Virus record (IMG/VR): IMGVR_UViG_3300042978_000005
Coordinates: 1 to 22,468 of that record
Direction: 5' to 3' (one strand)
DNA: 22,468 nt
Source of the DNA: a virus
The notes under the pieces are model-generated. The model was not told where the DNA came from, searched no databases, and worked only from the letters and a program-made list of their open reading frames with translations. The stretch's first letter is position 1. Each line of letters starts with the position of its first letter. Of the stretch, positions 1,481 to 22,468 are shown in pieces. A program made the translations under genes and the position numbers.

Positions 1481-1489
1481 GCTGACACC

Positions 1490-2515: not shown

Positions 2516-2517
2516 TC

Positions 2518-2775: not shown

Positions 2776-2777
2776 TC

Positions 2778-3257: not shown

Positions 3258-3258
3258 C

Positions 3259-3516: not shown

Positions 3517-3522
3517 CACCAC

Positions 3523-5101: not shown

Positions 5102-5107
5102 CCGGTC

Positions 5108-5137: not shown

Positions 5138-5522
5138 GCTCGACCTTGGCGCCATCGATGCGGTTTCGGATCGAGCGGCTGAGGCCGGCCTTCGACAGGC
5201 CCTTGGCGAGTACGAGCGGATCCTCAAGACCGATGTCCTGAACCGGGCCGGGTCGGGGAAGCAATACGGCAAGCACCAGGCCTCAGCCCCAGGCGAGCCC
5301 CCTGCCCGCGACCTGGGCAACCTCGTCGCCAACACGAACGCCGATCCGACCATCCGCGACGACGGGGACGCCAAGGTCGGCACGGTAACCGCCAACGCCG
5401 CCTATGCCCTGCCCCTGCACAACGGCACCGAGCGCATCGCGGCGCGCCCCTTCATGGATGTGCCGGCGAAAGAGAACCAGCGCGAGCTAACCGAGGCGTT
5501 CGTCAGAGGTGCGAGAGAATGA
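5124..5522 (+). CDS. HK97 gp10-like tail/neck protein (132 aa)
   Basis: The ATG at 5124 is preceded by AGGAGA (5114-5119). The N-terminal half is helical (AIDAVSDRAAEAGLRQALGEYERIL). A segment SAPGEPPARDLGNLVAN is followed by the family signature AAYALPLHNGTERIAARPFMDVP: an aromatic-Ala strand, a conserved Gly-Thr, then ARPFM. HK97 gp10-family proteins join the neck to the tail and are needed for tail completion. The gene overlaps the next one by four bases (ATGA), as expected for a tightly coupled neck pair. Confidence 0.85.
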   Translation: MAKVTLDLGAIDAVSDRAAEAGLRQALGEYERILKTDVLNRAGSGKQYGKHQASAPGEPPARDLGNLVANTNADPTIRDDGDAKVGTVTANAAYALPLHNGTERIAARPFMDVPAKENQRELTEAFVRGARE

Positions 5523-5950
5523 ACAGCACCGCCGCCATCTTCGCCCGCCTGAACGGCTCGCTGTCGATCATCGACCGTCTCGACGTATTCGAAGACCGCG
5601 CCGCCATCTTCAACGACCGTGCCCCCGACGACTTCCAGTTCACGGGTAAGGCCGCCTTGGTGATCGCCGCGCCGTCGGGCGACATCGACGCCAGCACCTT
5701 CTCCGAGACCATCCGCGACATCACCCAGGACGTCCGCCTCTACGCCCGCGACACCGGCTCGACAGCCGGCATCGACGCGCTGGGCCGCGACATCCGCGAC
5801 CTCTTCCACCTCCAGGCCTCACAGATCGAGATCGAGGACGGAACCTGCTCTCTCGCGACCGCTACCGGGCCGGTTGCAGCGCCGACCACTGACCCCTCGC
5901 TGGTCGGTCGGCGGGTTCAGCTCCGGATCCAACTGAAAAAGGACCTCTGA
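5519..5950 (+). CDS. Tail terminator / tail completion protein, DUF3168-like (143 aa)
   Basis: The ATG at 5519 overlaps the stop of the gp10-like gene. The pattern fits the tail terminator family, which includes lambda gpU: an N-terminal helix AAIFARLNGSL, a strand with IFNDRAPDDFQF and ALVIAAPSGDIDAST, a conserved RDITQDVRLYAR strand, the helix DALGRDIRDLF and a C-terminal strand VQLRIQLKKDL. Such proteins cap the tail tube and form the surface that meets the head. Position between the gp10-like gene and the tube gene is standard. Family assignment is by pattern and order. Confidence 0.75.
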   Translation: MNSTAAIFARLNGSLSIIDRLDVFEDRAAIFNDRAPDDFQFTGKAALVIAAPSGDIDASTFSETIRDITQDVRLYARDTGSTAGIDALGRDIRDLFHLQASQIEIEDGTCSLATATGPVAAPTTDPSLVGRRVQLRIQLKKDL

Positions 5951-5952
5951 CC

Positions 5953-6375
5953 ATGCCCACCTTGGCGCAAGGCTATATGAAGCTGCAGGTGGACCTGTCA
6001 GCCACCGGCACCCCCGACTGGACCAACATTCCCGGCGTCACCGTCGCCAACGGTCTCGGCTTCTCCGAGAACCGCATCGACACGACCGACTTCGATACCG
6101 CGCCTGGCTCGACCGAGAGCATCAGCGGCCCGCGTGCGAACACGCCCCTGACCTTCACGATGCACGACGAGGCAGCCGACGAAGCTCAGATCGCGCTACA
6201 CGACGCTTCAGACGCCAACGAGGCCCTGCAGTTCCGCCTGATCCGCGGCACGAAGGCTCAGGTCTTCACCGGCGTGCCCGTCCTGAACTTGGCGGCGCCG
6301 GTCAACGGCGTGGTCACTTACTCGGGCTCGATCACCCCCGACGCCAAGCCTACTCGCGGCAACGTGACCCCGTAA
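5953..6375 (+). CDS. Major tail tube protein (140 aa)
   Basis: The ATG at 5953 is preceded by AAAAAGGA (5936-5943). The product has the tube-protein layout: an opening strand YMKLQVDL, PDWTNIPGVTVANGLGFSENRIDTTD (the conserved helix/strand leading to a Thr-Thr-Asp), SGPRANTPLTFTMHD, then EALQFRLIRGTKAQVF and a closing GVVTYSGSITP. These proteins stack as hexamers to form the non-contractile tail tube. It lies directly before the tail-assembly chaperones and tape measure, as in lambda (V, G, GT, H). Confidence 0.88.
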   Translation: MPTLAQGYMKLQVDLSATGTPDWTNIPGVTVANGLGFSENRIDTTDFDTAPGSTESISGPRANTPLTFTMHDEAADEAQIALHDASDANEALQFRLIRGTKAQVFTGVPVLNLAAPVNGVVTYSGSITPDAKPTRGNVTP

Positions 6376-6376
6376 A

Positions 6377-6757
6377 ATGAACGACGCCCGCCTCGGCATT
6401 GTGCGCCTGTCGCTCCCAGACGAGCGGCAGGTCGCCCTGCAACTGACCTTCGCTGCCTTAGACGCCAAAGGCCATGACTGGCTGCTGGACCGCTTCAAGG
6501 TGCTACAGAAGGGCCGTGCCGGGGCGTCGTCTGCTCTCGGTGACCTGCTGGAGGTGCTGACCGCAGGCGCCATCACCAAGGCAGATGTGATCGGTGCCCC
6601 TGTTGCCGCTTTTCCCCTGTCGCCCTGCATGAAAGCCTGCTGGGATGCGTGGGAGCTTGCCCAATACGGCCCGGCCGGGAGGTCCGCCGAAGCTGGCCCC
6701 GCAAACCCTCCGACGCGCCGGCCGACGCTGTGGAGGCGGCTCTTCGGGCGGCGCTGA
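6377..6757 (+). CDS. Tail assembly chaperone, first frame (gpG-like, 126 aa)
   Basis: The start is one base after the tube stop (TAAAATG), so coupling is likely. The protein opens with a small strand-rich segment (LGIVRLSLPDERQVALQLTFAAL), then helices around LLDRFKVLQKGRAG and LGDLLEVLTAGAI, and a C-terminal CMKACWDAWELAQYGPAGR followed by a basic LWRRLFGRR. This is the pattern of the first tail-assembly chaperone in GTA-like and siphophage tails. These proteins bind the tape measure during tail assembly and are absent from the virion. A second chaperone frame overlaps its 3' end in the -1 frame, as in lambda G/GT. Confidence 0.8.
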   Translation: MNDARLGIVRLSLPDERQVALQLTFAALDAKGHDWLLDRFKVLQKGRAGASSALGDLLEVLTAGAITKADVIGAPVAAFPLSPCMKACWDAWELAQYGPAGRSAEAGPANPPTRRPTLWRRLFGRR

Positions 6758-7056
6758 AAGGCGGACTGTCCGAAGCCGAGTTCTGGAAGCTTACGCCCTA
6801 CCGCCTGGGCATGATCCTGACCGAGCGTGGGCGCGGTGAAGCAGCCTCGGCCCTCTGGACCGGATGGATGGTCGCCCGTCTCGCTGTTGAGCGGGAACCG
6901 ACCCTGTCAGGGCCCCAGCATTATTTCCGCGAGTTCTTCGACCCGAGCGGCAAGGCCTCCGATGCCGAGGCCATGGCCGATGCCGAGTTCAACCGGATCG
7001 CCCGCGTCTATGGCGTCGAGATCGTGGACTTGTCGGATGAGGGCGCGGCGCCCTAG
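6649..7056 (+). CDS. Tail assembly chaperone, second (-1) frame (gpT-like)
   Basis: The coding part is clear from about 6720 onward: ADAVEAALRAALKGGLSEAEFWKLTPYRLGMIL. The FWKLTP motif is typical of the second tail-assembly chaperone of alphaproteobacterial siphophages and GTAs. It then runs through SALWTGWMVARLAVE to a C-terminal NRIARVYGVEIVDLSDEG. No start codon in this frame (GTG 6649, GTG 6730) has a good ribosome-binding site, and the frame is -1 to the first chaperone. It is probably expressed as a frameshift fusion in the manner of lambda gpGT. The coordinates given are the open frame from 6649; the exact junction is not resolved. Confidence 0.7.
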   Translation: MGACPIRPGREVRRSWPRKPSDAPADAVEAALRAALKGGLSEAEFWKLTPYRLGMILTERGRGEAASALWTGWMVARLAVEREPTLSGPQHYFREFFDPSGKASDAEAMADAEFNRIARVYGVEIVDLSDEGAAP

Positions 7057-7081
7057 CCTGTCGTTCTTTCGGGAGTGACGA

Positions 7082-7288
7082 ATGCTGAAGCTGATCGCCG
7101 GTTGGATCCTAGTGCTGCTGGGCCTCGCTCTCGGTGGCTTTGGGCTTCTGGCCCTTGCTGGCCCGCCCCAAACGTTGGGCCTAGGCAGCGCCGCGCAGCT
7201 TCTGGCCTTGCAGACACAGATGCTGGTCCTGGGTTCGACCTCCCTCATCGTCGGCACGATCCTCCTGACGACCAGACGGCGCGACTAG
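7082..7288 (+). CDS. Small membrane protein with two hydrophobic helices (68 aa)
   Basis: Not recognised. The ATG at 7082 has GGGAG six bases upstream. The product has a first hydrophobic helix (about residues 5-27, IAGWILVLLGLALGGFGLLA), a short Gln/Pro/Gly-rich linker and a second one (about 42-63, LALQTQMLVLGSTSLIVGTI), ending in TTRRRD. Both ends are short, so it is mostly membrane-embedded. It lies between the tail chaperones and the tape measure and is followed directly by an intrinsic-terminator-like hairpin. It is not part of the conserved tail-gene order; a moron acting at the host membrane is a reasonable guess. Confidence 0.7.
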   Translation: MLKLIAGWILVLLGLALGGFGLLALAGPPQTLGLGSAAQLLALQTQMLVLGSTSLIVGTILLTTRRRD

Positions 7289-7310
7289 CGCCCACGACAT
7301 TGATCCTACC

Positions 7311-7338
7311 AGGGCTCGCTTCGGTGGGCCTTTTTCTT
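7311..7338 (+). terminator. Intrinsic terminator-like hairpin with UUCG loop, inside the tail operon
   Basis: Bases 7311-7319 pair with 7324-7332 (nine pairs, three or four of them G-U) closing a C(UUCG)G tetraloop, the most stable loop type known. A T-rich run (TTTTTCTTT) follows. It lies between the small membrane protein gene and the Shine-Dalgarno of the tape measure gene. It could end a separate transcript of the upstream small gene, or lower tape measure expression relative to the tube and chaperones. Confidence 0.6.
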
Positions 7339-7348
7339 TGGAGGCGGC

Positions 7349-9667
7349 ATGACCGACAGCCCTGTAGTCGGCAGCGCCTCTTGGGAGCTGCGCGCCACAC
7401 GCGACAAGCTGAAGCAGGATCTGCGCGATTCCGAGACCGACGTGAAACAAGCCGTCGGCGCCATGGAGAGGGACGCCACCGCAGGCGCAGACAAGGTCGG
7501 CGCTTCGTTCGGCAAGATGGGTAAAGCCATTGGTGTCGGGATTGCAGCCGTCGCCGCCGTAGCAGCCGCCGGCCTGGCCATCGCGCTCCAGTTCGGCCAA
7601 GCCAGCCTCAAGATGGCCGATGACCTGGCCAACTCGGCCCAGCGCATCGGCATCGGGACCGCCGCACTACAGGAATGGCAGTACGTCGCGCGCAAGACCG
7701 GCGAGGACGCCTCAGCAGTCAGCGGCTCGCTAGAGACCTTCTCCAACAAGTTCGCCTCTGCGGCTGCCGAATTGTCGAAAGCGGACGTGAAGGCCTTTGC
7801 AGCCCTGCGGCTAAATCCAGAAGACCTTCGCGGCTTCAAGGACGTCGAGGCAGCGCTTGATGAGGTGGTTGACCGGATCGGGTCACTGAAAAGCGAAAGC
7901 GACCGCGCGGCGATTGCTGAGCGACTGGGCCTTGGTCCGCTGGCCTCAGCACTTCGCGACGGTTCGGCGGAAGTCGCTAGGCTGAGGGATGAGGCGCAAG
8001 CCCTCGGCTTCGTGATGGACGAAGACCTGATCCGGAAAGGATCGGAAGCCCAAGGCCAGATGGAAGACCTGGCGCAAGTGATCGGCATCCAGCTCGCCGG
8101 GGCGTTCATCGAACTGTCAGACGAAGTGCTGACCTTCACCAGCTACATCGCTGACGCGCTACGGGGCCTGAACGCCTTTATCGAGCGCGCCCAGACCTGG
8201 AAGACGCGTGTGGACGCCATGTACGGCGACGGCGTCACCACAGGCATTAAAGAAGGCGGCGTCATGGGCCCCCTTCGCGCCATAGGCAGCGCCGTCGGGT
8301 CGGTCGTCTCCGGAAGAACGTTCCGAGCGGCCGCTGACATCCGTGCCGGCAAAAGCCTTCCGGATTACGCCAATCCCATCGATGCCAACGCGGTAGCTGC
8401 CTTCGGCATCTCACCGCCGCCACCCCGCACACCTCGCAATGACTTCGCCGGCACGCTTTCCGTTCCAGCCGGCCGCACCCGCACCGACAATAGCGCCCAA
8501 CGCGCCGCCGAGCGCGAAGCCCGCCGCGCCGAACGCGTCGAGCAGGAAATCTTCCGCGCTCGTCAGCGCCTGCTTCGGGTCGCCGAAGACGACATCTTGA
8601 CCGCCCAGCAGCGCTACGACCTGGCGCGCGAGCAGCTGAAGATGGACCGCGAGGCGCGCGACGCCGAGATCCAGAGCAAAACCGACCGTGGAGAGATCAA
8701 GGCTGCTGAACGCCGCCAGCTGGACGCCGCCAACGCTTCGGCCGACGCCCTGGAAGACCGGCTGCTGACCGACAACGCCTTCCGCGAAATTCAAGACGAG
8801 CGCTTGGCGACCGAGAAGCTGCTCTCTGGCCTGACCGCCGACCTGCTGTCGCTTCAGTCCGGCGCCGCCCGCACCGCCAAGGAGCGCCAGCGGATTGAAC
8901 TGGACCTGCTGGAGATCACCCAGCGCCAGCGTCGCGAAGCACTCCGTCTGGAGCTGGACCGCAACCCATCGCTGACCCAGGCGCAGCGCGACGGCGCTAT
9001 GGCCACCAACGGCCGGATCGAGCGCGGCGAACGCGACGCCGTGATCCGCAACAACCTGTCGCCGCTCCAAGCCTGGCGCGACGAGAGCCTGAAGACTGCC
9101 GACGAAATCCGCGAGGCCTATGAGAACGTCGGCGCACGCGGCCTCGATGCGCTCAACAGCGGCATCGTCGACGCCATCATGAACACCAAGAGCCTGGGCG
9201 AGACCTTCTCGTCTGTGGCCAAGCAAATCCTGGCGGACCTGCTGTCGATCTCGGTGCGGCGCGGGATCACCGAGCCTCTGGCGGATATGCTGTTCGGCGG
9301 CTCAGGTTCTGGATCAGGCGGCGGCATCGGCTCGTCGATCTTCTCGGCCATCAAGTCGGCGCTGAAGATCCCAGGCTTCTCCAGCGGCGTCTCTAACTTC
9401 GGCGGGGGGCTCGCTTATGTCCATGCCGGCGAAATCCTGGCCAACCTGCCGCAGGGCACCGACGTGATCCCCGCTCATGCGGTCCAGGCCATGGGAAGCA
9501 GGGGCAGCGTGTCACGCATTGTGGTGACGACCAATGATGACCGGTTCAACGCCTACGTCGACGACCGGGCCGCCCGGCCGGCCGCTGCTGCCTTCAGCAC
9601 CGCTCGCGAGACTGTTCCGACCGACATGGCCCGAAAGAGCCGTTACACCTTGGGACGTCGTCGCTGA
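7349..9667 (+). CDS. Tail tape measure protein (772 aa)
   Basis: The longest gene of the window. The start ATG follows GGAGG (7340-7344). An N-terminal helical region is followed by a long hydrophobic segment (about residues 50-75, KAIGVGIAAVAAVAAAGLAIAL). Next comes the conserved tape-measure core: SLKMADDLANSAQRIGIG, ALQEWQYVARKTGEDAS, and LGLGPLASALRDGS. The central part (about residues 380-560) is charged coiled coil. The C-terminus has a GETFSSVAKQILADLL motif and a glycine-rich stretch ending YVHAGEILANLPQGTDVIPAHA. Tape measure proteins set tail length and are ejected into the host envelope. Its length implies a moderate tail. The stop overlaps the next start (TGATG). Confidence 0.92.
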   Translation: MTDSPVVGSASWELRATRDKLKQDLRDSETDVKQAVGAMERDATAGADKVGASFGKMGKAIGVGIAAVAAVAAAGLAIALQFGQASLKMADDLANSAQRIGIGTAALQEWQYVARKTGEDASAVSGSLETFSNKFASAAAELSKADVKAFAALRLNPEDLRGFKDVEAALDEVVDRIGSLKSESDRAAIAERLGLGPLASALRDGSAEVARLRDEAQALGFVMDEDLIRKGSEAQGQMEDLAQVIGIQLAGAFIELSDEVLTFTSYIADALRGLNAFIERAQTWKTRVDAMYGDGVTTGIKEGGVMGPLRAIGSAVGSVVSGRTFRAAADIRAGKSLPDYANPIDANAVAAFGISPPPPRTPRNDFAGTLSVPAGRTRTDNSAQRAAEREARRAERVEQEIFRARQRLLRVAEDDILTAQQRYDLAREQLKMDREARDAEIQSKTDRGEIKAAERRQLDAANASADALEDRLLTDNAFREIQDERLATEKLLSGLTADLLSLQSGAARTAKERQRIELDLLEITQRQRREALRLELDRNPSLTQAQRDGAMATNGRIERGERDAVIRNNLSPLQAWRDESLKTADEIREAYENVGARGLDALNSGIVDAIMNTKSLGETFSSVAKQILADLLSISVRRGITEPLADMLFGGSGSGSGGGIGSSIFSAIKSALKIPGFSSGVSNFGGGLAYVHAGEILANLPQGTDVIPAHAVQAMGSRGSVSRIVVTTNDDRFNAYVDDRAARPAAAAFSTARETVPTDMARKSRYTLGRRR

Positions 9668-10251
9668 TGGGCGTGCTGACCCTGCCGACGAGTCCGGCGC
9701 CGTCGAACATGGGCATTGCCCTGATCTCGGCGAAGAACGTCCTGGCCCCGGCCTTTGGTGACGGAGAACAAGAGCTTCTGCGCAAGGGCAGCCGCTACGC
9801 CCTGACCTTCCAGATGCCGCCCATGCGCTACGTCACGTCGATGGACTGGGACGACCTGATGGCCGAGGGCGACACGGTCGTAATGAAGGTTCACCAGCCC
9901 GGCTTCGACACCGGCGCGCCGGGCACACCCCGTGTGAACACGTCGGGCCAATCTGGTCGCATCATCGCCTTGAAGGGTATGACGCCGGGCTATGTGATCC
10001 ACAAAGGCCAGTTCCTGTCGATCGTCACGCAGGGCCGGCGGTTCCTGTATCGCGCAGCGAACGCCGCTCTGGTGCTGGAGAACGGTCGGGCCAACGTCTT
10101 GCTGCGCACCATGCTGCGCTTCCCGCCGGCGGATAACGACGTGGTCGAGATCGCTCAGCCGATGATCGAGGGCTTCGTCCGTGACCTGGGCGAATGGTCG
10201 GTTGGCGTCGATCGTTTGGTCGGGCTGCAGTTCACGGTGAGGGAGCGCTGA
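9667..10251 (+). CDS. Putative distal tail protein (194 aa)
   Basis: The ATG shares one base with the tape measure stop. The protein is strand-rich with motifs LLRKGSRYALTFQMPPM, a helical MDWDDLMAEGDTVVMKV, SGRIIALKGMTPGYVIHKGQFLSIVTQG and a C-terminal FTVRER. The segment around KGQFLSIV...RRFLYRAANA looks like a distal-tail or baseplate beta domain. Position directly after the tape measure and before the hub genes fits the first tail-tip protein (distal tail, or the lambda M/L position). The role is inferred mainly from gene order. Confidence 0.65.
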   Translation: MGVLTLPTSPAPSNMGIALISAKNVLAPAFGDGEQELLRKGSRYALTFQMPPMRYVTSMDWDDLMAEGDTVVMKVHQPGFDTGAPGTPRVNTSGQSGRIIALKGMTPGYVIHKGQFLSIVTQGRRFLYRAANAALVLENGRANVLLRTMLRFPPADNDVVEIAQPMIEGFVRDLGEWSVGVDRLVGLQFTVRER

Positions 10252-10886
10252 TGGACGCGAACCTGATCGCCGCCTATCAGCAGCCCGCCTTTGTCAAAGC
10301 GACCCTGGTGCGGTTCGATATGGCGGGCGGCGCCGTCTGCCTGACGGACGGCGGTTTCGTTGTGTTCGACGCCGGCGAAGGCGATGGGCCGGAGGGGTAT
10401 GTCGCCTACCATCCCGTCTATGGATCGCTGGACACTGTCGGCGGCGTCAAAGACGGCGCCGAGGCCCAGACCACACGCATCGACATCGCTCTTCTGCCCG
10501 CCTCGGACACCGCCGCCGCAGCTCTGGCTTCGCCAACGACTCAAGGCACGCGTATCCAGTGGTGGGAGGGCGCCGTCGATCCTGACAGCGGTCTCCTGAT
10601 CGGCGTCCCCGAACTGAAGTTCGACGGGGAGATCGACAAGGCGCGGTTCCAGGTCAGCGACAGCTGGAGCCTGACGCTGGAATGCGGAACCCAGGCCGAG
10701 CGCCAGCTGGAGCCGAACGCCGACTGGCGGTTGAACAACGCCTTTCATCAACTGATCTGGCCCGGCGAACTGGGCCTGTCCTACGTCGACGGCGTCACCC
10801 GTAAAAAGGAATGGCGCAGCCGACCCGAAAACCCGGGCGTGTTCAAACGTCTGTTGAAGTCGCTGGTCCCGCTGCTGCCCGACTGA
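10251..10886 (+). CDS. Tail-tip protein, possibly DUF2163-like (211 aa)
   Basis: The ATG at 10251 overlaps the preceding stop (TGATG) and has GGGAG upstream. The opening MDANLIAAYQQPAFVKATLVRFDMAGG, followed by VCLTDGGFVVFDAG, resembles the start of DUF2163/GTA tail-tip proteins. A middle part with GVKDGAEAQTTRIDIALLP and TRIQWWEGAVDPDSGLL suggests stacked beta domains. The C-terminal NNAFHQLIWPGELGLSYVDG resembles the family's C-terminal segment, without its usual cysteines. In RcGTA and related tails such a protein sits between the distal tail protein and the NlpC/P60 protein, as here. Family call is tentative. Confidence 0.65.
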   Translation: MDANLIAAYQQPAFVKATLVRFDMAGGAVCLTDGGFVVFDAGEGDGPEGYVAYHPVYGSLDTVGGVKDGAEAQTTRIDIALLPASDTAAAALASPTTQGTRIQWWEGAVDPDSGLLIGVPELKFDGEIDKARFQVSDSWSLTLECGTQAERQLEPNADWRLNNAFHQLIWPGELGLSYVDGVTRKKEWRSRPENPGVFKRLLKSLVPLLPD

Positions 10887-10897
10887 GGGAAACCATC

Positions 10898-11323
10898 ATG
10901 AACACGATGCTCAAGCGGGCTGCGGCGACGCAGGCCTGCATGGACCGTTTCGCCTACAAGCCCGTCGAACCCGGCGTGCGGGATTGCGGCAAGCTGGCGG
11001 CTCACGCCCTGCACAAGCAGGGCCGATCCGCCAAACTGCTGAACGCCTCGAAACACCGTAGCTGGCGCGGGGCCCTGGCCTATCTGAAACGAACCGGGTT
11101 CGCGTCCCTGGTCGAGCTGATCGACGCCATGGAGCTGCAGCGGATTCCGCCGGCCGCGGCCCTGCCGGGCGACATCATCGCCATGCCGACCGATGAGGCG
11201 AACGGCTTCGGCTGTTCACTGGCCGTGGCGCTGGAGAACGGCCGGGTGCTGGGTCTGAACCCGGCGACGAACTTGATCGAGCCGATGATCCCGCACCTGT
11301 TCGTCTGCGCCTGGAGGGTCTGA
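10898..11323 (+). CDS. NlpC/P60-like tail protein, DUF6950-like (141 aa)
   Basis: The ATG at 10898 follows GAGGGA (10885-10890). The protein begins with a helix, then FAYKPVEPGVRDCGKLAAHAL, where the Asp-Cys-Gly is the catalytic-cysteine motif of NlpC/P60-type and DUF6950 proteins. It continues with SWRGALAYLKRTGFASL, AALPGDIIAMPTDEA (the conserved GDI/V segment) and a C-terminal NLIEPMIPHLFVCAWRV, ending in the typical AWRV. It lies just upstream of the J-like gene, where lambda has K and GTAs have a cell-wall peptidase. It probably cuts peptidoglycan locally during entry or helps build the tip. The His partner residue is not obvious. Confidence 0.75.
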   Translation: MNTMLKRAAATQACMDRFAYKPVEPGVRDCGKLAAHALHKQGRSAKLLNASKHRSWRGALAYLKRTGFASLVELIDAMELQRIPPAAALPGDIIAMPTDEANGFGCSLAVALENGRVLGLNPATNLIEPMIPHLFVCAWRV

Positions 11324-13594
11324 GTGCCGCACCTTCTGCCCGCCGCCGCCAGCGCCATCGCCCAGGCCGCGCCGACCGCCGCCGCCACGGCGGCCAAGGC
11401 GACCGTCATGGGGACGCTGAAGTCGGTCGCTTTCAACGCCCTGACCAGCCTGGCGATCAGTTCGGCCTTGTCGGTCTTTTCGCCCGCCGTGGGGGCGTCG
11501 GCGCGGCAGGTCGAGTTCGTTATCGATCCGGACGGACCGATCCCCTTCGCCGCCGGCCGCGTCGGCGTGTCGGGCTCGGTGATCCACCGCGACACCTTCG
11601 GCCCCGACCTGATGTATTACGGCATCCCGTTCGTCCTGTCGGGCGCGGGGCCGATCACCGCCATCGAATCCTTCATGGCGGACGATCATCCGATGGCGTT
11701 CGACGCCAACGGCGGCGCGACGACCGAACCCTATCGCCAGGAACTGTTCTTTCGGTCCGTCCTGGGTTTCCAGCCCGCCCCCGCCGCCCTGACCACGCCC
11801 AGCGGTCTCAAGAAGGGCGCGACGCTGCCGGGCTGGACGTCGGCGCACAAGCTGTCGGGCAAGGCGGCCGGGCTGATCGTCATGGCCGAGAACAGCAAGG
11901 GCTCGGCCTTCCCGACCGGCGAGATCAAGCCGCTGATCCAGCTGCTCGGCCTGAAGGGGTGGGACCCCACGCTGGACAGCACCTATCCCGGCGGCGACGG
12001 CCCGTGCCGGCTTCACGACGCCTCGACCTGGGTGACGTTGACCTGTCCGATCCTGTGGGGGCTGAAGTGGGCGTTGGGGCTGTGGGAAGGCCCGACGTTG
12101 AAAGGCGCGCCCGCGCACGACAGTCTGACCGACCATCAGGTCGGCGGCATCGGCGCCCGGTTGTCGGGCATCGACGTCCCCGCCTTCGTCGCCGCCTCCA
12201 ATATCGCCAAGGCGAACGCCTGGACGGTGTCCGCCTATCCGAACACCGACGACGACAAGCACCAGGTGCTGGAGGCCTTCCTCCAGACCGGCGGCGCCAC
12301 CTATTCCCAGCGCGCGGGCAAGATTAGCTGCATCAGCCGCGCAGCGCCACGCGCCAGCTTGGTCACGATCTCGGCCCGCGACACGGCCGGACCGCTGGAG
12401 ATCGACACGGCCGCCAGCCGTATCGACCGTATCAACACCCTGCGTCCCCGTTTCTGGAGCCCTGCGCACCGTTGGCAGATGACGGCGATGGACGGGGAGG
12501 TCACGGCCCAGTCCTATCGCGACGAGGACGGCGGGCGCACCCGGTCGCGCGGCATCGACTTCCCGTTCGTGTCGGACGCGACCCAGACCGCTCAGCTGAC
12601 CGCGCTGCAGATCGCCAACACGCGCGAGGGCATCGCGGGCGTGATCCCGCTGAAGCCGCATCTGCAGCGCATCCGTCCAGGCGACGCGTTCACCATCACC
12701 GAGGCAGGCTTTGTCCTGAATGGGCTGAAATGCTTGTGCCTGAACACTGACTATGATCCGGCCACGGGGGTGGTGCGGGTGTCGTTCGTCAGCGAGACCG
12801 ACGCCAAATATCCGTTCGCTCTCGGTCAGAATCCCACCCCGCCTGAGCCTCAGGTTCTGACGCCCGTTGATCCGACCTTCGTCTCCGCGCCTGACGAAGG
12901 CGAATGGGCTCTTGCCGCCGAGACGCTCGTAGATAACGGCGTCTCCATTCCAATACTGGCAATCACCGGGTCCTGCGAAAACGCGACTGCAGATCAGGTT
13001 ATCTTCGACTTCCGGCCGGTTGATGATCCAGAGAGAGAATGGGCCGGCGCGGGCGTCGAGGGTCCCACTGTTGTTCGCAAAGAAATCGGCGGACCGATCA
13101 CGCCAGGGACAATCTACGAAGCGTCGGTGAGATATCGACGAGGGAATAACGTCTCGGAACGGCGCTTATTGGCCCCGGGCGTGGCTGGAGCATTGATCGC
13201 AGCGACCCCAACTCAATCCAGGATCACCACATTCTCGGGCTCAATCGGTCGAACGACGCCGCTGAATACGGCGGGCAGCACGTCAGCGATGACCGTACCG
13301 ACATCCGGCCGGTTCATCGTCGAGGTCACCAACGGTTTCACGTCCAGCCCGGGTGAAGCCAGCGGATTGCTGCGGCTTTACATTTCAAAGAATGGTGCGG
13401 AGACACAGGTCGGATCGGTCCCGGTCGTCGCGAGTGACGGGATTCAGCCGTGCGATCTAAGCGGCCTCAATATGGAGGTCGAACATGCCTTTTCAGGTCC
13501 GGTCTCGTTCATTCTTAAGGCGAACGGAAATGGCCCACGCGATGAGGCGATAGGCGCGATCACTGGAACGCTTAAAGCCACATTTTACTCCTGA
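11324..13594 (+). CDS. Host specificity / central tail tip protein, lambda gpJ-like (756 aa)
   Basis: GTG start at 11324 directly after the previous stop, with GGAGGG (11312-11317). The N-terminus is Ala-rich and partly hydrophobic (about residues 1-55). The conserved hub region follows: PIPFAAGRVGVSGSVIHRDTFG, YYGIPFVLSGAGPI, later LEAFLQTGGATYSQRAGKISC and RPRFWSPAHRWQMTAMDGEVTAQSYRDEDGGRTRSRGIDFPFV. These match the central tip proteins of alphaproteobacterial siphophages. After about residue 505 a fibronectin-like, strand-rich C-terminal part begins. From there codon use becomes less GC-biased, with ata, aga and gta codons. The N-terminal hub is virion-conserved; the C-terminal part is likely the receptor-facing, exchanged part. 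Confidence 0.85.
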   Translation: MPHLLPAAASAIAQAAPTAAATAAKATVMGTLKSVAFNALTSLAISSALSVFSPAVGASARQVEFVIDPDGPIPFAAGRVGVSGSVIHRDTFGPDLMYYGIPFVLSGAGPITAIESFMADDHPMAFDANGGATTEPYRQELFFRSVLGFQPAPAALTTPSGLKKGATLPGWTSAHKLSGKAAGLIVMAENSKGSAFPTGEIKPLIQLLGLKGWDPTLDSTYPGGDGPCRLHDASTWVTLTCPILWGLKWALGLWEGPTLKGAPAHDSLTDHQVGGIGARLSGIDVPAFVAASNIAKANAWTVSAYPNTDDDKHQVLEAFLQTGGATYSQRAGKISCISRAAPRASLVTISARDTAGPLEIDTAASRIDRINTLRPRFWSPAHRWQMTAMDGEVTAQSYRDEDGGRTRSRGIDFPFVSDATQTAQLTALQIANTREGIAGVIPLKPHLQRIRPGDAFTITEAGFVLNGLKCLCLNTDYDPATGVVRVSFVSETDAKYPFALGQNPTPPEPQVLTPVDPTFVSAPDEGEWALAAETLVDNGVSIPILAITGSCENATADQVIFDFRPVDDPEREWAGAGVEGPTVVRKEIGGPITPGTIYEASVRYRRGNNVSERRLLAPGVAGALIAATPTQSRITTFSGSIGRTTPLNTAGSTSAMTVPTSGRFIVEVTNGFTSSPGEASGLLRLYISKNGAETQVGSVPVVASDGIQPCDLSGLNMEVEHAFSGPVSFILKANGNGPRDEAIGAITGTLKATFYS

Positions 13595-13627
13595 CCGCCC
13601 TCCCGGTTCGAGCCAAGGATGCCCGCC

Positions 13628-14020
13628 ATGATCACTCCCGGACGTCTGGACCTCACGGTCCAGCGATGGACGCCGTTCGTCTATCAGATCGACTTCGAAG
13701 GGCTGGATTTCACAGGCGCCACGATGGCGATGCAGGTTCGCCTGTATCGTGATGCGCCAAGCGCGGCGCTGGTCTCGCTGGTCAATGCCGCTTCGAACGC
13801 CGAGGGCCTGTCATTGACGGTTGCGACGGTTGATGACGCGCCAGTTTCCACCATTCAGATCCGCATCAACGAGACCACAGCCGAAGCTCTTCTCCTGAAC
13901 GCCGGCAAACCCGGTGACGACATCCGGCTGGTCTACGACCTTCACATCACGGGTGGCGGCTTTCCGAAAACTCGATGGATCGAAGGCGATCTGATCATCC
14001 GTGCTGGAGCGACGCAGTAA
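13628..14020 (+). CDS. Small tail-fibre-associated protein (130 aa)
   Basis: I chose the ATG at 13628, which has AAGGA (13615-13619) at good spacing; an ATG at 13619 would add three residues but has no ribosome-binding site. The protein is strand-rich (LDLTVQRWTPFVYQIDFEGLDFTGATMAMQVRLY, later STIQIRINETTAEALLL and DIRLVYDLHIT), ending GDLIIRAGATQ. This is the pattern of small all-beta proteins found between the J-like gene and the tail fibre in alphaproteobacterial phages. They may link fibre to baseplate. The stop overlaps the tailspike start (TAATG). No enzymatic motif is visible. Confidence 0.7.
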   Translation: MITPGRLDLTVQRWTPFVYQIDFEGLDFTGATMAMQVRLYRDAPSAALVSLVNAASNAEGLSLTVATVDDAPVSTIQIRINETTAEALLLNAGKPGDDIRLVYDLHITGGGFPKTRWIEGDLIIRAGATQ

Positions 14021-15843
14021 TGGCCGATGTTATCGTTAGGGTCATCAATAACCGCGCAGTCGTTCAGGTGGCAGGGGCGGAAGCGCTTGTGCGGCTTGCA
14101 GAGGCAGCGACGCGAGAGAATGCCGAGCGGGCTGAAGAAGCGCTCGCGCAGATCGAACAGATTGCGGCAGGCGCACCGGATGCGCCAAGCGTCCTCAATA
14201 AGCTCGACAAGACCGAGAACCTGTCCGAACTGGCGGACGTTGCGGCGGCGCGACAAAACCTGTCACTCAATGAAGTTTCGCCGCTGGACTACGGGGCAGT
14301 CGGAAATGGAATCGACGCCGACGACATGCCTATTGCTCTGGCGATTGCAGCGGCTTTGGCTACTGGGCGTTCGGTCAATCTTCGCGGTCTAGCGTACGGC
14401 GTTTCAGCCCCCGTGGTTCTTGAGTCGGGAGTGTCGATACTGAACGGTGCTCTGGTTGCGCGCTCAGACTTCGATGGTTTCTGGATCATTCAATATGCCG
14501 GGACTAACATCACGGTTCGTGGTGTCGCAATCGATGGAGCCAATCTTCCAAGCGAGTCCATCGTATCGGGCGCCCGCGCGCAGGGCTCTACCGTCAACCT
14601 GTTGATCGAAAACTGCCTTGTAAAGAACTTGTCTTTTGACGGGATTTCAATAGCCGCTGCTGGCGGACTTTACTCGCATGCCTATCCAACAGTTCGTGGA
14701 TGCCGCATCGAGAATGTGGGGTGGGGTGGCATATCAATGGAAGATGCCACCGACGGCCTCATTCTGGGCAACACCGTCTACCGATCGGCATATCATGGCA
14801 TTGCTGTTGCAAGATCTTGCCGGCGAGTCAGGATTACCGCCAATTCCGTCGATCGTTCAATGCCCCCTGACATTATATACGACGGCCCCGGTTCGGTCGG
14901 CGGAGTTGAAGGCGGCTTCCTTTGCTACAAAGAACCGCTGTGTGCGGAGATCACGATCTCCGCCAATACCTTTGAAGACAACCGAAATGCGGGCCAAGAC
15001 GGCATCGGCGTTGGCGAGGACGGCACAGAGCACGGGTCGTGGGCGATTACAGGGAATGTCGTACGTTATGCCGGCCTCTTTGGAATCGATCCTGTCGGAA
15101 ACTGCACATGCTCAGGAAATCTGATTGAGTTTGCGGCTGAGCAAGGCATCCACGTTGGTCTAGATCTGGGCGGGATGATGCGGAACATCACCGTCACCGG
15201 AAATACGATCAAGAATACGGGCCTCTCGGCGGGCAAGGCCGGAATACTTGTCGGTGATACGCTGGGCGCGAGTTGCACCGCCCGAAACATAAAAATTGCC
15301 GACAACATGGTCATCGACGATCGGGCGACCAAGTACACCGACTACGGGATAATCATCGTCGCCGAGGCAGGCGAGACGACGATCGAGGGCCTGTCGGTGA
15401 CCGGAAACGACCTTGCGCGCGTCGGCGTGTCGTCATTCCTGCACGTCGGCGCAAGTGGGCCTGGTGCCGATTTTCAGTGCTGGGGTAACAATACCCTAGG
15501 CGACGAGCGAACGGCCTTTATGCCCTCTGTGACATCTGCTTCGGGCACCATATCGGCAGTTAGCGCGTCCGGTCGGTTTCACAGGGTTGGATCAACCGTG
15601 CATTTCCGCTGCCGCATTCAAATCACATCGGCAGGTACTGGAACGGGCGTTATGACGGTCGCCCTACCTGTTCCAGCGCGCTCAGGAACATCCTTCCCGC
15701 TCTATGGGGTAGCTGGCAACCTGGCCGTACCGCTGTATGTACTCGCCCAAGGGAGTGACATGGTCGTAGTCCAGCCAGGCGGCGGCACTGTTATTGCCAG
15801 CGGTGCGGATCTTTACCTGTCAGGAACGTACGAAGCCTCGTGA
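14020..15843 (+). CDS. Tailspike with right-handed beta-helix (pectate-lyase-like fold, 607 aa)
   Basis: The ATG shares a base with the previous stop. Residues about 20-50 form a coiled coil (EALVRLAEAATRENAERAEE). A NLSELADVAAARQNLSL motif typical of tail fibres follows at 67-83, then the tailspike signature DYGAVGNGIDADD (90-102). From about 120 to 500 the repeats (NITVRGVAIDG, GCRIENVGWGGISM, NITVTGNTIKNTGL, GLSVTGNDLARVG) are the rungs of a right-handed parallel beta-helix. The last 110 residues are strand-rich (HRVGSTVHFRCRIQ, LPVPARSGTSFPLYGV) and look like a trimer-forming cap. Such spikes bind and often cut surface polysaccharide. Substrate cannot be read from sequence. Confidence 0.85.
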   Translation: MADVIVRVINNRAVVQVAGAEALVRLAEAATRENAERAEEALAQIEQIAAGAPDAPSVLNKLDKTENLSELADVAAARQNLSLNEVSPLDYGAVGNGIDADDMPIALAIAAALATGRSVNLRGLAYGVSAPVVLESGVSILNGALVARSDFDGFWIIQYAGTNITVRGVAIDGANLPSESIVSGARAQGSTVNLLIENCLVKNLSFDGISIAAAGGLYSHAYPTVRGCRIENVGWGGISMEDATDGLILGNTVYRSAYHGIAVARSCRRVRITANSVDRSMPPDIIYDGPGSVGGVEGGFLCYKEPLCAEITISANTFEDNRNAGQDGIGVGEDGTEHGSWAITGNVVRYAGLFGIDPVGNCTCSGNLIEFAAEQGIHVGLDLGGMMRNITVTGNTIKNTGLSAGKAGILVGDTLGASCTARNIKIADNMVIDDRATKYTDYGIIIVAEAGETTIEGLSVTGNDLARVGVSSFLHVGASGPGADFQCWGNNTLGDERTAFMPSVTSASGTISAVSASGRFHRVGSTVHFRCRIQITSAGTGTGVMTVALPVPARSGTSFPLYGVAGNLAVPLYVLAQGSDMVVVQPGGGTVIASGADLYLSGTYEAS

Positions 15844-15874
15844 CAGAGGAAGCGAGAACGATCATCTTAAAGGG

Positions 15875-16867
15875 ATGACCTTAGATCGGATTTTGTTCAC
15901 CGGCGACGCCTTTCGAACGACCGAAGGCCTGGAGCCTGTTCAGCTCGCCAACTCAATTTGGCTGCATGAGCAGTTTGGGGGGGTGTTCCACGGGGTGACG
16001 CAACTAGAGGTGCAGCTTGCGTTCCCTCTCTGGGGTTCGCTGGCTGACTGGGTAGCGCTGCAGACGTATCCTGGTTTTGAACCATGGGCTGCCGCGTTTT
16101 GGAACGCTCCAAGTCCAGAGCTGATCCGCGCAGTGAGGGCGAGTACGAAGGGCGCGCTAGTTGTCGGCATAGAGTTGCCGCCAGTCATGATTGCGGCTTT
16201 GGATGCTGCAGACACGCCATGGATTGAGATAACCATTAGCCCGCTGCGGTTCTTAGCGGATTTCGCGATCCACGTGCGCACGTCGGCACATTTCGATCTT
16301 GCCGCAGTATCGGATGCACGATTGGCCGAAGAAGATCTGCAGGAGGCAATACGGAGGGTGAGGGCGTGGGCCATTCCTCAAGAGCCGGGTCGCGTGTTCT
16401 TCGGTCAAACTCCGACAGATCGCACCGTCATTACGAGCGGACGCTTCGCCTCCGCCGATGACGCGCTAGCGGCTTTCAACCCGGTAGGATTGCGCATCAA
16501 GCGGCACCCTTGGGTGCAGGACTGCCCTATCGTTGATGCCATGGTGGAGCGGGGGGCCGTAGTGACCGATGCTGATACCTACGCCCTACTTTCAAGCGAG
16601 GGCGTTGAAGTCGAAACTCTAGCGTCCTCGGTCGGGAGAGAGGCTAAAACATTCGGCCGACCGACGACGATAGCCCTGCCGGAAGTGCAGGACTGGTCCA
16701 ACTCAGGCATGGACGTGCTGCGGATGGCGTTCGCCTCTACCTTCTGGGCCGATCTGCTTTCCACTGCCGGAGTTCCTGTCTCGCCGAAGGCTGATGACCC
16801 TTGGCGGCCTAACCGCTTGCGGTCGCAGATTGGCGGTTTCGGCCTACATCCCGACGTCTGGGGCTGA
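15875..16867 (+). CDS. GT-B-fold glycan-enzyme candidate, KpsC/KpsS-like C-terminus (330 aa)
   Basis: The ATG at 15875 is the first good start after the tailspike stop; its ribosome-binding site is weak. The opening RILFTGDAFRTTEG is a strand-loop like the start of a Rossmann domain. In the C-terminal half, IKRHPWVQDCPIV (residues 208-220) is followed by VTDADTYALLSSEGVEVETLASSVGREAKTFGRPTTI (230-266). This resembles the nucleotide-sugar site of capsule transferases of the KpsC/KpsS type (lys-x-his-pro, then thr/ser-ser-x-gly-x-glu-ala, then phe-gly-x-pro). I infer a surface-glycan transferase acting in the cytoplasm. The gene is followed two bases later by a methyltransferase. Lower GC at third positions than the tail genes suggests recent gain. 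It could also act on virion proteins. Confidence 0.6.
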   Translation: MTLDRILFTGDAFRTTEGLEPVQLANSIWLHEQFGGVFHGVTQLEVQLAFPLWGSLADWVALQTYPGFEPWAAAFWNAPSPELIRAVRASTKGALVVGIELPPVMIAALDAADTPWIEITISPLRFLADFAIHVRTSAHFDLAAVSDARLAEEDLQEAIRRVRAWAIPQEPGRVFFGQTPTDRTVITSGRFASADDALAAFNPVGLRIKRHPWVQDCPIVDAMVERGAVVTDADTYALLSSEGVEVETLASSVGREAKTFGRPTTIALPEVQDWSNSGMDVLRMAFASTFWADLLSTAGVPVSPKADDPWRPNRLRSQIGGFGLHPDVWG

Positions 16868-16869
16868 GC

Positions 16870-17442
16870 ATGATCTCATTCTACGACCTTACTGAAGACG
16901 AACGCATCGCGCTTACCGATACAGTGATCGAGAATGGAACGACGCTTAAAGCGCGGTGGGATCGCTTGCGAGATGCCGAGGCAAACCCGTGGTCACGTCG
17001 CGCTGAACGAGCGGGCGAACTGTTGGGTCCGGTAGAAACACTGCTGGACGTGGGTTGCGGGACGATGGCTCTAGAGCGCTTCGTCCAAGCCAAAACCTAC
17101 ATCCCGTCTGACGTGACCAGGCGCGACGATCGCACGATCGTCATGGACTACAACGTAGAGGGCGCGCCGGGTGTGGAAGTCGATGCTGTCGCGGTGCTGG
17201 GCGTGCTCGAATATTTGCACGACCCTCTATCGTTCATGCGCGGACTGAATGCGCGACGCGCCGTGGTCAGTTACTGCGTAACGGATGCCCCGGAACCGCT
17301 TGAGCCCAGAAAAGCCCACGCATGGGTGAATAGCTTTGCAATGTCAGATATGAGCGACCTGCTGAAAAGCGCCGGTTGGACTATAGATTGCATAGAGGTT
17401 CTAGACAGTATTCAGTCGATATGGCTGGCGCATCGCGATTAA
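16870..17442 (+). CDS. Class I SAM-dependent methyltransferase (190 aa)
   Basis: The ATG follows the previous stop by two bases, so the two are co-translated. Motif I is LLDVGCGTM (58-66), the SAM-binding glycine loop. Motif II acidic residue is in IPSDVTRRDD (79-87), and MDYN (92-95) precedes the VAVLGVLEYLHDP (107-119) motif IV strand. The rest is the usual Rossmann C-terminal half. There is no DNA-methylase catalytic motif ((N/D)PPY or PC), so a small-molecule, sugar or protein target is more likely. Pairing with the upstream transferase-like gene suggests methylation of a glycan. The stop overlaps that of the convergent DUF1796 gene (TTAA). Confidence 0.8.
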   Translation: MISFYDLTEDERIALTDTVIENGTTLKARWDRLRDAEANPWSRRAERAGELLGPVETLLDVGCGTMALERFVQAKTYIPSDVTRRDDRTIVMDYNVEGAPGVEVDAVAVLGVLEYLHDPLSFMRGLNARRAVVSYCVTDAPEPLEPRKAHAWVNSFAMSDMSDLLKSAGWTIDCIEVLDSIQSIWLAHRD

Positions 17443-18011
17443 AGCGCTTGTAGCCATTCCAGCCGGTGGCATTCTCGGCAAGTACTATAAATTGGATAAT
17501 CTACGAACAAATCATCATAGCCTGCCTCATCGCCCTCATTGGCCGCATGGGCCGGGGCATAGAACCGCAGCGTATGGGACGGGCCAAGAGGCACAGGGTC
17601 GTCGGGCCGGCGCAGGACCACCAAGGCGTAGTCGTGAGCAAGCCGGTCTAGCAGCCTTCGCAGGCGCGCAAGGTCGCTATCCGAGGGCGGGGCCTGCGGC
17701 TTCAGGATGTAGCAGCGGCGCCCGGTTGGCGCCATGAACCGCTCACCTAGATAGGCGCACTTCTCGCGCTCCTGATGAACAGGCTGATTGTGGAACTGGA
17801 AGCCATATCGGGCATCCATGCTCATGCCGTCATGCTCACCCGGCGCGACGGCTTCAGCGATGCCGGCGAAGCGGCTTTCCAGCAAGTCGAGCAGCGCTGA
17901 GAGTGGCGTGATCTTCCAGTCAAAGAGGTGCTTTCTCCGCGACGGGAAGGCCCGGTCTAGCTGAAAAGCAACTTCGCAGTTGCTGCCAAGCGAAACATAT
18001 TCGTCGAACAT
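17439..18011 (-). CDS. DUF1796 family protein, putative papain-like cysteine peptidase (190 aa)
   Basis: The ATG at 18011 follows GGAGGA with seven-base spacing on the reverse strand, so I prefer it to the GTG at 18026. The N-terminus FDEYVSLGSNCEVAFQLDR with Cys12, then HLFDWKITPLSALLDLLE, is the DUF1796 signature (SLGS-x-C, later FDW). His74 (YGFQFHNQ) and ALVVLRRPDD follow, which fits the predicted papain-like fold. In other bacteria DUF1796 genes lie in surface-polysaccharide and glycosyltransferase clusters; that agrees with the two genes convergent to it. It is transcribed against the late operon and ends inside the methyltransferase stop. Substrate unknown. Part of the C-terminal coding segment (17470-17520) is clearly AT-richer. 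Confidence 0.75.
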   Translation of the reverse strand: MFDEYVSLGSNCEVAFQLDRAFPSRRKHLFDWKITPLSALLDLLESRFAGIAEAVAPGEHDGMSMDARYGFQFHNQPVHQEREKCAYLGERFMAPTGRRCYILKPQAPPSDSDLARLRRLLDRLAHDYALVVLRRPDDPVPLGPSHTLRFYAPAHAANEGDEAGYDDLFVDYPIYSTCRECHRLEWLQAL

Positions 18012-18119
18012 CGCCCTGTCCTCCACGCCGAATCCTCTCGCGACACGCGCGTGAAAGCAACTCCCCAGTTCAAGCCGCCCAACGGCTGTTCCACCACGGC
18101 CTGACTATTGGAGGGGCGG

Positions 18120-18449
18120 ATGTTCGACCCACGCGAACTGCCCGCGTTCTGGGGCCTGTGCGGCGGTTTGCTGTCGGGGGCTGTGGGGCTGGTGACAGCC
18201 TATTCTGCAAAGGCCGGCAATCCGGTCGCCCAGCGGAAGGCATGGCTGCATCTTGGCCTCGGCATCGTCGCCGGTCCCATCGTCGCCGAGGCGCTGACCC
18301 ATGGCGTCATCCTCGCCGTCGTGCCGGTCCTTGATATGCGCGGCGTCGCCTTGGCGCTGGGATGGATGGTCGCCAACGACCCGCGCGCTCTCTTCGACAC
18401 CTTGACCCGCGTGGTGCGGGCCGTCTTCAACCAGGAGCCTCAGCGATGA
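18120..18449 (+). CDS. Small membrane protein, holin candidate (109 aa)
   Basis: The ATG at 18120 follows GGAGG (18110-18114); starts further upstream lack support. Hydrophobic segments are seen at about residues 9-29 (AFWGLCGGLLSGAVGLVTAYS), 44-66 (LHLGLGIVAGPIVAEALTHGVIL) and 75-88 (GVALALGWMV), with a basic C-terminal tail. Three membrane segments in about 110 residues, directly upstream of another membrane protein, endolysin and spanins, suggest a holin. No named holin family was recognised. It overlaps the next gene by four bases (ATGA). It is the first gene of the lysis module. Confidence 0.65.
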   Translation: MFDPRELPAFWGLCGGLLSGAVGLVTAYSAKAGNPVAQRKAWLHLGLGIVAGPIVAEALTHGVILAVVPVLDMRGVALALGWMVANDPRALFDTLTRVVRAVFNQEPQR

Positions 18450-19301: not shown

Positions 19302-19778
19302 ATGCCGTACGTGCTGGGCGCGAAGTCGCGCGCCGAACTCAAGGGCGTTCACCCTGATCTGGTCCGCGTCGTAGAGCGCGCGATCCAGATCACGTTGCAG
19401 GACTTCAGCGTTCACGACGGCCTGCGCACGGCCGAAGAGCAAAAGGCTCTGGTCGCCTCTGGCGCTTCCCAGACCATGAACTCGATGCACCGGCCCCAAG
19501 CCGACGGATTCGGCCATGCCGTGGACCTCGTGCCCTTCATCAACGGCAAGATGCGTTGGGAATGGCCCGCCATCTATCCGATCGCCGCCGCCGTCTGGCA
19601 GGCGTCCCGCGAGTTGGGCGTCTCGATCCGCTGGGGCGGCGCCTGGATCAACATGGCAGATATCAAGACCGGGACGCCCGGCGCCATGAAAACGGCCGTC
19701 GATGCCTATGGCGCGGCGCGGCGCAAGCTGGGCAAGTCTGCGTTCACCGATGGTCCGCACTTCGAGCTGGCGCGATGA
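19302..19778 (+). CDS. Endolysin, M15-family (L-Ala-D-Glu / VanY-CwlK-type) peptidase (158 aa)
   Basis: The ATG follows GGAG with seven-base spacing. The layout is that of phage M15 peptidases: an N-terminal helix (HPDLVRVVERAIQI), DFSVHDGLRTAEEQKAL (Arg42, Gln47), SMHRPQADGFGHAVDLVPF with His63 and Asp75 as zinc ligands, and DGPHFELAR with His153 as the third ligand. These enzymes cut the peptide stems of peptidoglycan. No signal peptide or anchor is seen, so release through a holin is expected, which fits the membrane proteins upstream. The stop overlaps the i-spanin start (ATGA). Confidence 0.9.
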   Translation: MPYVLGAKSRAELKGVHPDLVRVVERAIQITLQDFSVHDGLRTAEEQKALVASGASQTMNSMHRPQADGFGHAVDLVPFINGKMRWEWPAIYPIAAAVWQASRELGVSIRWGGAWINMADIKTGTPGAMKTAVDAYGAARRKLGKSAFTDGPHFELAR

Positions 19779-21203: not shown

Positions 21204-21253
21204 TGGTGGACGCGACAGGGATTGAACCTGTGACCCCCTCGGTGTGAACGAAG
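21204..21253 (-). other. Attachment site: 3' part of tRNA-Val(CAC) gene (att core)
   Basis: Read on the reverse strand, 21253-21204 gives an anticodon arm CTTCG-TTCACAC-CGAGG, variable loop GGGTC, T arm ACAGG-TTCAATC-CCTGT, acceptor 3' strand CGCGTCC, discriminator A and CCA. The anticodon CAC with T33 and A37 points to tRNA-Val. The D arm and 5' acceptor strand are missing, so this is not a complete gene. Its place about 100 bases from the integrase gene identifies it as the phage attachment site, with crossover probably in or near the anticodon loop. Confidence 0.85.
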
Positions 21254-21312
21254 CGTGTTCCGCCCGAAACGCCCTTTCCGCTTGGATTCGGCCTTCGCTA
21301 CTTTCCGGTTTC

Positions 21313-21356: not shown

Positions 21357-22468
21357 TCAGCGCATCGCCCGCCGCGCCGCCGACTGGTGATCCGGCCTAT
21401 GGTGCCCGTAGTGACTTTCAAGGGTCGCCGTCGTCATGCCGAGATAGCCCGCTGCTTCCCAGCCATCGACGTTCTGTTCCATCAGCCAAGTCGCCGCAGT
21501 GTGTCGGAGCCAGTGCGGCGTGACGCCCGAAAGCCCGGCCGCCTTGGCGCATGCGGCGAATCCGGTCCGCACCGAGCCGATCTGCTCCCCGCCATGGTGG
21601 ATGACGATGGCCAAGCCCTTCTTCTCGTCGATGCGGCGCCAGCGTCGGAGGTGCGCTAGAAGCCGGGGCGGCAGCTTCACCAGGGGGCGCTTCTTGTTCG
21701 CAGCGACACTTTCATTCCGGCCGCGCCGATAGATGATGCCGCGCTCCAGATCGACCCAGGGGTTGTTCAGGCTTTCCAGCCACGACAGACGCTTGATCGC
21801 TGTCGAGCGAGTGCCGGTGTAAAGCCCGATCAGAATGAAGCGACGAAGGTGTGCCCGGTTCTCCCGGCCGGATGAGGAATCGCCCCGCTGCATGGTCGCC
21901 CGCAGAAGGGCAGCCGCCTGCGATCGCGTGAGGGCGTCCCGGTTGCTTTCCGCCTTTTCGGGGAGGACGACCATCGGCCGGCGCGTCAGATGGTGCTCTG
22001 CGTCCCAGAAGCCGATCGCGGCCGACAGAACCTCCAGCTCGCGCCGCGCTGTCTGCGCAGACACCTTTCGCCCGGTCGAGCCGGTGCGGATGACCTGGGA
22101 CGTTCTGTAGCGGACATAGGCGTTACATGACGATCGCTTGACGTCCGAAAGCATTTGCTCGCCCCAGAAGGCGTTCAGGTGATCGACGAACCCCTTCATG
22201 GTCGCGGGATCCGCCTTCAGCTGTGGCCCGCGCTCCATGCTGTAGAGCGCGAGTGCGTCAGCTACGAGGACTTGAGCGGGATCACTGTTGCCGACTGGCT
22301 TGGACCATTTTTCCGCGATGAACGCGGCGAGTTGTCGTTCCGCGTCGTCCAAGCGCTCGACGCTGCAGCCTGTGCCAACCTCACTCTTTCCGTCACGGAT
22401 GAACCAACGGTCGGGGAGCTGCTGGCCCGTCCGATTGTCGATCCGGCCTTTGCGGAGGTAGAGGCGCG
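21357..22468 (-). CDS. int: Tyrosine site-specific integrase (5' end outside window)
   Basis: The frame stays open to the right edge; the residues before the TTG at 22352 (LYLRKGRIDNRTGQQLPDRW, then FIRDGKSEVGTGC) look coding, so the start lies outside. The N-terminal/SAM-like domain runs through KGFVDHLNAFWGEQMLSDV and SCNAYVRYRT. The catalytic domain shows TGTRSTAIKRLSW (first Arg), HWLRHTAATWLM (His-x-x-Arg box) and ETLESHYGHH-type end (TATLESHYGHHRPDHQ) with the nucleophile Tyr. It catalyses recombination between attP and a tRNA-Val attB and excision. It ends 104 bases from the att core. No excisionase gene is in the window. Confidence 0.92.
   Translation of the reverse strand, partial: RLYLRKGRIDNRTGQQLPDRWFIRDGKSEVGTGCSVERLDDAERQLAAFIAEKWSKPVGNSDPAQVLVADALALYSMERGPQLKADPATMKGFVDHLNAFWGEQMLSDVKRSSCNAYVRYRTSQVIRTGSTGRKVSAQTARRELEVLSAAIGFWDAEHHLTRRPMVVLPEKAESNRDALTRSQAAALLRATMQRGDSSSGRENRAHLRRFILIGLYTGTRSTAIKRLSWLESLNNPWVDLERGIIYRRGRNESVAANKKRPLVKLPPRLLAHLRRWRRIDEKKGLAIVIHHGGEQIGSVRTGFAACAKAAGLSGVTPHWLRHTAATWLMEQNVDGWEAAGYLGMTTATLESHYGHHRPDHQSAARRAMR

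Follow-up and report, generated by a model that had tools for sequence, protein, structure and literature searches.

A tailspike-linked gene block as a candidate lysogenic-conversion module in temperate siphophages of Caulobacterales

Spike-linked conversion modules are, as such, already known. In the temperate phage Sf6, a single O-acetyltransferase gene (oac) lies directly behind the tailspike gene and convergent to it, and O-acetylation confers immunity to superinfection (PMC9558356). The P22-like Salmonella phage epsilon34 carries a convergent three-gene conversion operon, gtrCBA, directly behind its tailspike (PMC2629481), a putative O-antigen acetylase has been reported immediately behind a prophage tailspike in E. 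coli O104:H4 (PMC3303846), and Acinetobacter baumannii prophages combine a depolymerase tailspike with the capsule-changing polymerase Wzy (PMC13228068). Here we describe a comparable block in IMG/VR virus record IMGVR_UViG_3300042978_000005 (22,468 bases, hereafter the window), in which a tailspike gene is followed by genes for a GT140-like probable glycosyltransferase of 330 residues, a methyltransferase and a convergent DUF1796 protein. All four were found where an initial annotation had placed them (14020-18011). Sequence comparison and analogy with the systems above make it likely that these genes form an exchangeable module for lysogenic conversion, coupled to the receptor-binding tailspike in a family of temperate Caulobacterales siphophages.

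The likeness to each of these systems is partial. Sf6 is also temperate and also has its glycan enzyme directly behind the spike, but it is a podophage of an enteric host with one O-acetyltransferase. The epsilon34 operon matches the window in gene number and position, but it encodes a periplasmic Gtr system with an undecaprenyl carrier and lacks a transferase for 3-deoxy-D-manno-oct-2-ulosonic acid (Kdo), a methyltransferase and DUF1796. The A. baumannii prophages act by polymerase replacement, whereas the window has no polymerase, although an EpsG-like one is present in a sibling locus (L037). No description of this enzyme set, of a phage GT140 protein, of DUF1796 in such a role or of the slot in alphaproteobacterial siphophages was found in the open-access literature searched.

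A variable slot behind the tailspike

The tailspike (start codon at 14020, stop at 15843, + strand; 607 residues) is a right-handed beta-helix protein (Pfam Beta_helix, E 2.8e-19; PHROG tail spike, E 4e-7). Relatives of the phage, being prophages or phage contigs, were collected through tail protein J and through the small PHROG 1084 family protein encoded directly upstream of the spike (13619-14020, + strand; E 1.3e-9), which is 65-86% identical in the siblings aligned and served as the anchor of the survey. Eighteen loci, the window included, have a separate spike followed by a readable slot; they were compared with six relatives that have J but no separate spike. Surface-glycan enzymes occupy the slot in 13 of the 18 spike-bearing loci, as opposed to none of the six others. 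The slot contains Methyltransf_23 in L012, FkbM in L019 and L020, a methyltransferase with DUF1796 and GT34 in L030, GT4 in L026 and, on the minus strand, in L038, a minus-strand PglD-like gene in L035, an EpsG-like polymerase in L037, Acyl_transf_3 in L039, L040 and L046, and Acyl_transf_3 plus a hexapeptide transferase, again on the minus strand, in L044. A pooled scan returned glycan-transferase families in members L035, L038 and L044 only, and in none of the six spikeless relatives. The arrangement of L037 was seen again in L087, from another genome in the genus group of the Brevundimonas metagenome-assembled genome; no recognised cassette was found in three more distant loci of the L087 genome (L088-L090), the Pfam scan covering L088 and L090 only. 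As a separate observation, a GDSL/SGNH lipase-like protein is encoded ahead of the slot acyltransferase in L046 (11622-12968); it may be a receptor enzyme with deacetylating activity that is matched with the O-acetyltransferase.

In pairwise comparisons, similarity between sibling spikes and the window spike is confined to roughly the first 50-140 residues, except in L030, whose spike is the only one matching it end to end (58%). About 80 N-terminal residues of the window spike are common to the siblings, and the remainder is exchangeable. Among the siblings, DUF1796 was seen in the slot of L030 alone, and the glycosyltransferase and methyltransferase of L030 are unrelated to those of the window. 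The initial annotation had suggested surveying other prophages for the three genes beside tailspikes; what recurs among these loci is the slot and not the trio, and DUF1796 accompanies the homologous spike of L030.

GC content is 0.565-0.600 over the genes between 13619 and 18011 and 0.64-0.68 in the flanks, and DNA similarity to L012 ends at 14210 and returns at 18073 (blastn). The right edge, at 18071-18072, is in common with L030 and L028, and in L028 this edge comes directly after the spike, leaving an empty site. A short conserved leader common to L012, L028 and L030 (18071-18119) forms the right boundary upstream of the next gene, at which the common backbone resumes; this gene (18120-18449, + strand) encodes a small, conserved, hydrophobic protein that is 96% identical in L012 and holin-like in its position. 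On this comparative evidence, the spike and the cassette are exchanged as one block. The leader, which holds a GCCG...CGGC hairpin-like stretch, may serve as a boundary at which modules are exchanged.

Enzymes of the cassette

KrkA of the E. coli K13 capsule (PDB 9yfx and 9yfy), a retaining beta-Kdo transferase whose fold resembles those of KpsC and WbbB, is the founding member of GT140, and it belongs with WbbB (GT99) and KpsC/KpsS (GT107) to one mechanistic clan characterized by QxxxD and HP motifs and a double displacement (PMC12887879). The gene for the 330-residue protein (15875-16867, + strand) begins 31 bases after the tailspike gene. By single-sequence phmmer, its product matches the solved KrkA (9yfx) over residues 81-296 (E 1e-8), and a profile built from eight homologues, that of the window included, matches the whole KrkA chain (residues 2-354, E 1.5e-65); the two proteins are about 23% identical. 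The KrkA residues Asp193, Gln189 (of QxxxD), Glu102, Arg127, His227-Pro228 and Asn21 correspond in the window protein (numbered without the first Met) to D181, Q177, E99, R124, H210-P211 and N25; all are identical, and Asp193, Gln189, Glu102, Arg127, His227 and Asn21 are so across all eight aligned homologues. In KrkA, loss of Asp193 (the nucleophile), Glu102 (the base), Arg127, His227 or Asn21 abolishes or nearly abolishes activity (PMC12887879). The window protein is unlike KrkA in that it stands alone without a ribosyltransferase, has a shorter N-terminal domain and is phage-borne. It had been annotated initially as KpsC/KpsS-like, which by this homology was in the right fold clan but was not borne out at the family level: no Pfam, PHROG or NCBIfam model matched it, hence none for KpsC/KpsS, and no family-level sequence match to WbbB or KpsC/KpsS was detectable. 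By homology the protein is a divergent member of the KrkA family, and it is a probable CMP-ulosonate (beta-Kdo) transferase, CMP being cytidine monophosphate. With regard to the modified GT-B fold of GT140, a single-sequence AlphaFold2 model had a predicted local distance difference test score (pLDDT) of 33, too low for use.

Several other GT140 homologues have polysaccharide genes as neighbours. On two roseobacter plasmids the homologue adjoins CMP-Kdo genes of the kpsF, kdsB and kdsA types, and further homologues sit among glycosyltransferases, gmd or other sugar-nucleotide genes. DUF2793 genes were also noted near GT140 in the polysaccharide loci of two roseobacter plasmids (L003, 16895-17053; L009, 4657-5730); we take DUF2793 to be a fibre-type domain of phages and gene transfer agents. 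In the L072 genome, one of the few from the Brevundimonas family or its class to carry GT140, the GT140 gene is directly followed by that of a methyltransferase. No GT140 match was obtained by tblastn with two different GT140 queries against 50,697 phage records, and scans of viral contigs with the protein and with the GT140 alignment gave no relatives.

The methyltransferase gene (16870-17442, + strand; 190 residues) starts 2 bases past the GT140-like stop. Its product is a Methyltransf_23-like protein, predicted to depend on S-adenosylmethionine (Pfam E 1.5e-5; 25.2 bits, slightly under the curated cut-off of 27), with a motif-I-like 'LLDVGCGT', and at the blastp level it is unrelated to the methyltransferases of L030 and L072. 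A role as a DNA methylase was set aside, as the Pfam matches are to generic small-molecule or sugar types. PADLOC gave no defence match for the window genes, and in L030 only a generic methyltransferase match.

The soluble nature of the window enzymes and the position of the cassette next to the tail genes would suit a modification of the virion itself, for example glycosylation and methylation of the spike or tail, which had been offered initially as a less usual option. However, four Acyl_transf_3 proteins and one EpsG polymerase in sibling slots have several membrane spans, as expected of multi-pass O-acetyltransferases and a polymerase acting on polysaccharide at the inner membrane, and the GT140 homologues reside in polysaccharide loci, so that virion modification is very improbable.

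The third gene (17439-18011, - strand; 190 residues) is convergent and overlaps the methyltransferase stop by 4 bases. Its product is assigned to DUF1796 (PF08795), annotated as putative papain-like cysteine peptidases, with 23.0 bits against a cut-off of 23 over profile positions 2-51 only, the first third. The assignment is supported by the sibling copy in L030, which scores 23.3 bits and is 40% identical; Cys12 and His74 of the window protein, candidates for the N-terminal Cys and downstream His of a papain-like enzyme, are present in that copy as well, and a fold model reached a pLDDT of 38, too low for use. A viral-contig scan with the protein and tblastn against the phage records found no relatives, and the L030 contig was the sole result when viral contigs were scanned for a DUF1796 motif. 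Two prophage-like loci of Caulobacteraceae (L064 and L065) combine virion structural and DNA-ejection genes with DUF1796, which is located close to or after a large protein occupying the place of a tail fibre; the large proteins match no family, and these loci are only suggestive of further pairings of DUF1796 with a spike-type protein. In three Caulobacteraceae genomes (L066, L067, L069), an unusual large protein that starts 'MAPTRKTSSLFKT' contains a DUF1796-like domain; the chromosomal surroundings of its gene are conserved and show no obvious phage genes. A virion protease was considered for DUF1796 and set aside, the family being found also outside phages. No paper on DUF1796 was found in the open-access library searched.

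Another explanation is that the genes are accessory cargo that serves the host surface otherwise, in biofilm formation, stress or grazing, and that the site behind the spike is merely a convenient insertion point. Few genomes carry GT140 (Brevundimonas family, 3 of 199; class, 3 of 385), yet some Caulobacteraceae genomes have it at non-phage positions, and the same applies to DUF1796. Cargo unrelated to the spike nevertheless has only a slim chance of being correct, given that the cassettes are limited to spike-bearing relatives in the survey and that the spike type co-varies with DUF1796.

Proposed function and timing of expression

The lysogenic-conversion reading, which had already been proposed in the initial annotation, is well supported by comparison, although not as a recurring three-gene system: the phage is temperate, slot enzymes are confined to spike-bearing loci, and the layout is that of Sf6 and epsilon34. 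By analogy with these two phages, the cassette would be expected to modify the glycan bound by the spike. Homology and gene neighbours suggest that the GT140 enzyme would take CMP-Kdo, the probable donor, or a similar CMP-ulosonate from the lipopolysaccharide-core pathway of the host, and that, at the cytoplasmic face, it would attach a beta-linked residue to the O-antigen or capsule, probably as a cap or side residue. The methyltransferase could then methylate the added residue or a neighbouring sugar, and a third step, on the same glycan, may fall to DUF1796. So altered, the glycan would no longer fit the spike of the phage, whereby lysogens would resist superinfection by sister phages and progeny would not be trapped on debris. 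We put forward only tentatively the specific version of this model, in which the phage masks its own receptor with a methylated Kdo-type ulosonic acid cap made by GT140, and DUF1796 represents a novel type of enzyme that modifies surface glycans and accompanies certain tailspikes of alphaproteobacterial phages.

Several observations weigh against lysogenic conversion or its proposed chemistry. The acceptor-side residues Glu17 and Lys71 of KrkA are replaced by Val and Trp in the window protein, and the other seven homologues also lack them; the acceptor therefore differs from that of KrkA, and the identity of the donor is not certain. Many DUF1796 genes of Caulobacteraceae lie outside phage or glycan loci. 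No recognised cassette was found in five of the 18 spike-bearing loci (L025, L027, L028, L041 and L047), and the one-sided Fisher test of the survey (p 0.003) does not correct for relatedness among the loci. Finally, the GT140 and methyltransferase genes, behind the spike, share the orientation of the late genes, and no promoter-like site was detected in 15400-18400 with the E. coli consensus, the only one used; these two genes may therefore be made in the lytic phase.

The last point leads to a different timing, in which GT140 and the methyltransferase would share the transcript of the spike and work towards the end of the lytic cycle. They would change the glycan of a cell about to lyse, which would let virions escape its debris, with little or no effect on lysogens. 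The short gaps of 31 and 2 bases are in line with such co-transcription, and the sibling cassettes of L026, L037, L040 and L046 are also co-directional with the late genes. On the other hand, DUF1796 and the cassettes of L012, L019, L020, L030, L035, L038, L039 and L044 oppose the late genes, like those of Sf6 and epsilon34, and capping enzymes made minutes before lysis would be expected to alter little of the existing surface. We regard late-lytic action as unlikely.

Phage, host and biological meaning

The head, tail, lysis and integrase genes of the window form a siphophage set (Pfam, PHROG). By gene content the virus is a temperate siphophage, as it has an integrase gene (21357-22466, - strand, running off the window end; PHROG integrase, E 9e-32) and its siblings sit in bacterial genome contigs; the hosts of the family appear to be Caulobacterales of the Brevundimonas/Caulobacter group. 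The endolysin is encoded at 19302-19778 (+ strand; PHROG 465, E 4.9e-52). Between the lysis genes and the integrase lies a tRNA-Val (cac) gene (21204-21274, - strand), which the 3' end of the integrase gene faces and which is possibly the attachment site. A contig of a different metagenome (L015, 1-11497), which ends inside J, is 99.99% identical to window positions 1324-12820, so that the same or a very near phage was sampled twice.

The best-documented cases of spike-linked serotype conversion come from enteric phages, and the same design would here be found in alphaproteobacterial siphophages. With a plug-in slot that accepts at least seven enzyme types, the spike may serve as a clue to the glycan and the cassette as a clue to the modification of that glycan. 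If the proposed chemistry is true, CMP-ulosonate transfer and methylation would be added to the repertoire of phage seroconversion, and a first handle on DUF1796 would be gained. The pairing of spikes with cassettes also gives predictions that can be checked in Caulobacter and Brevundimonas.

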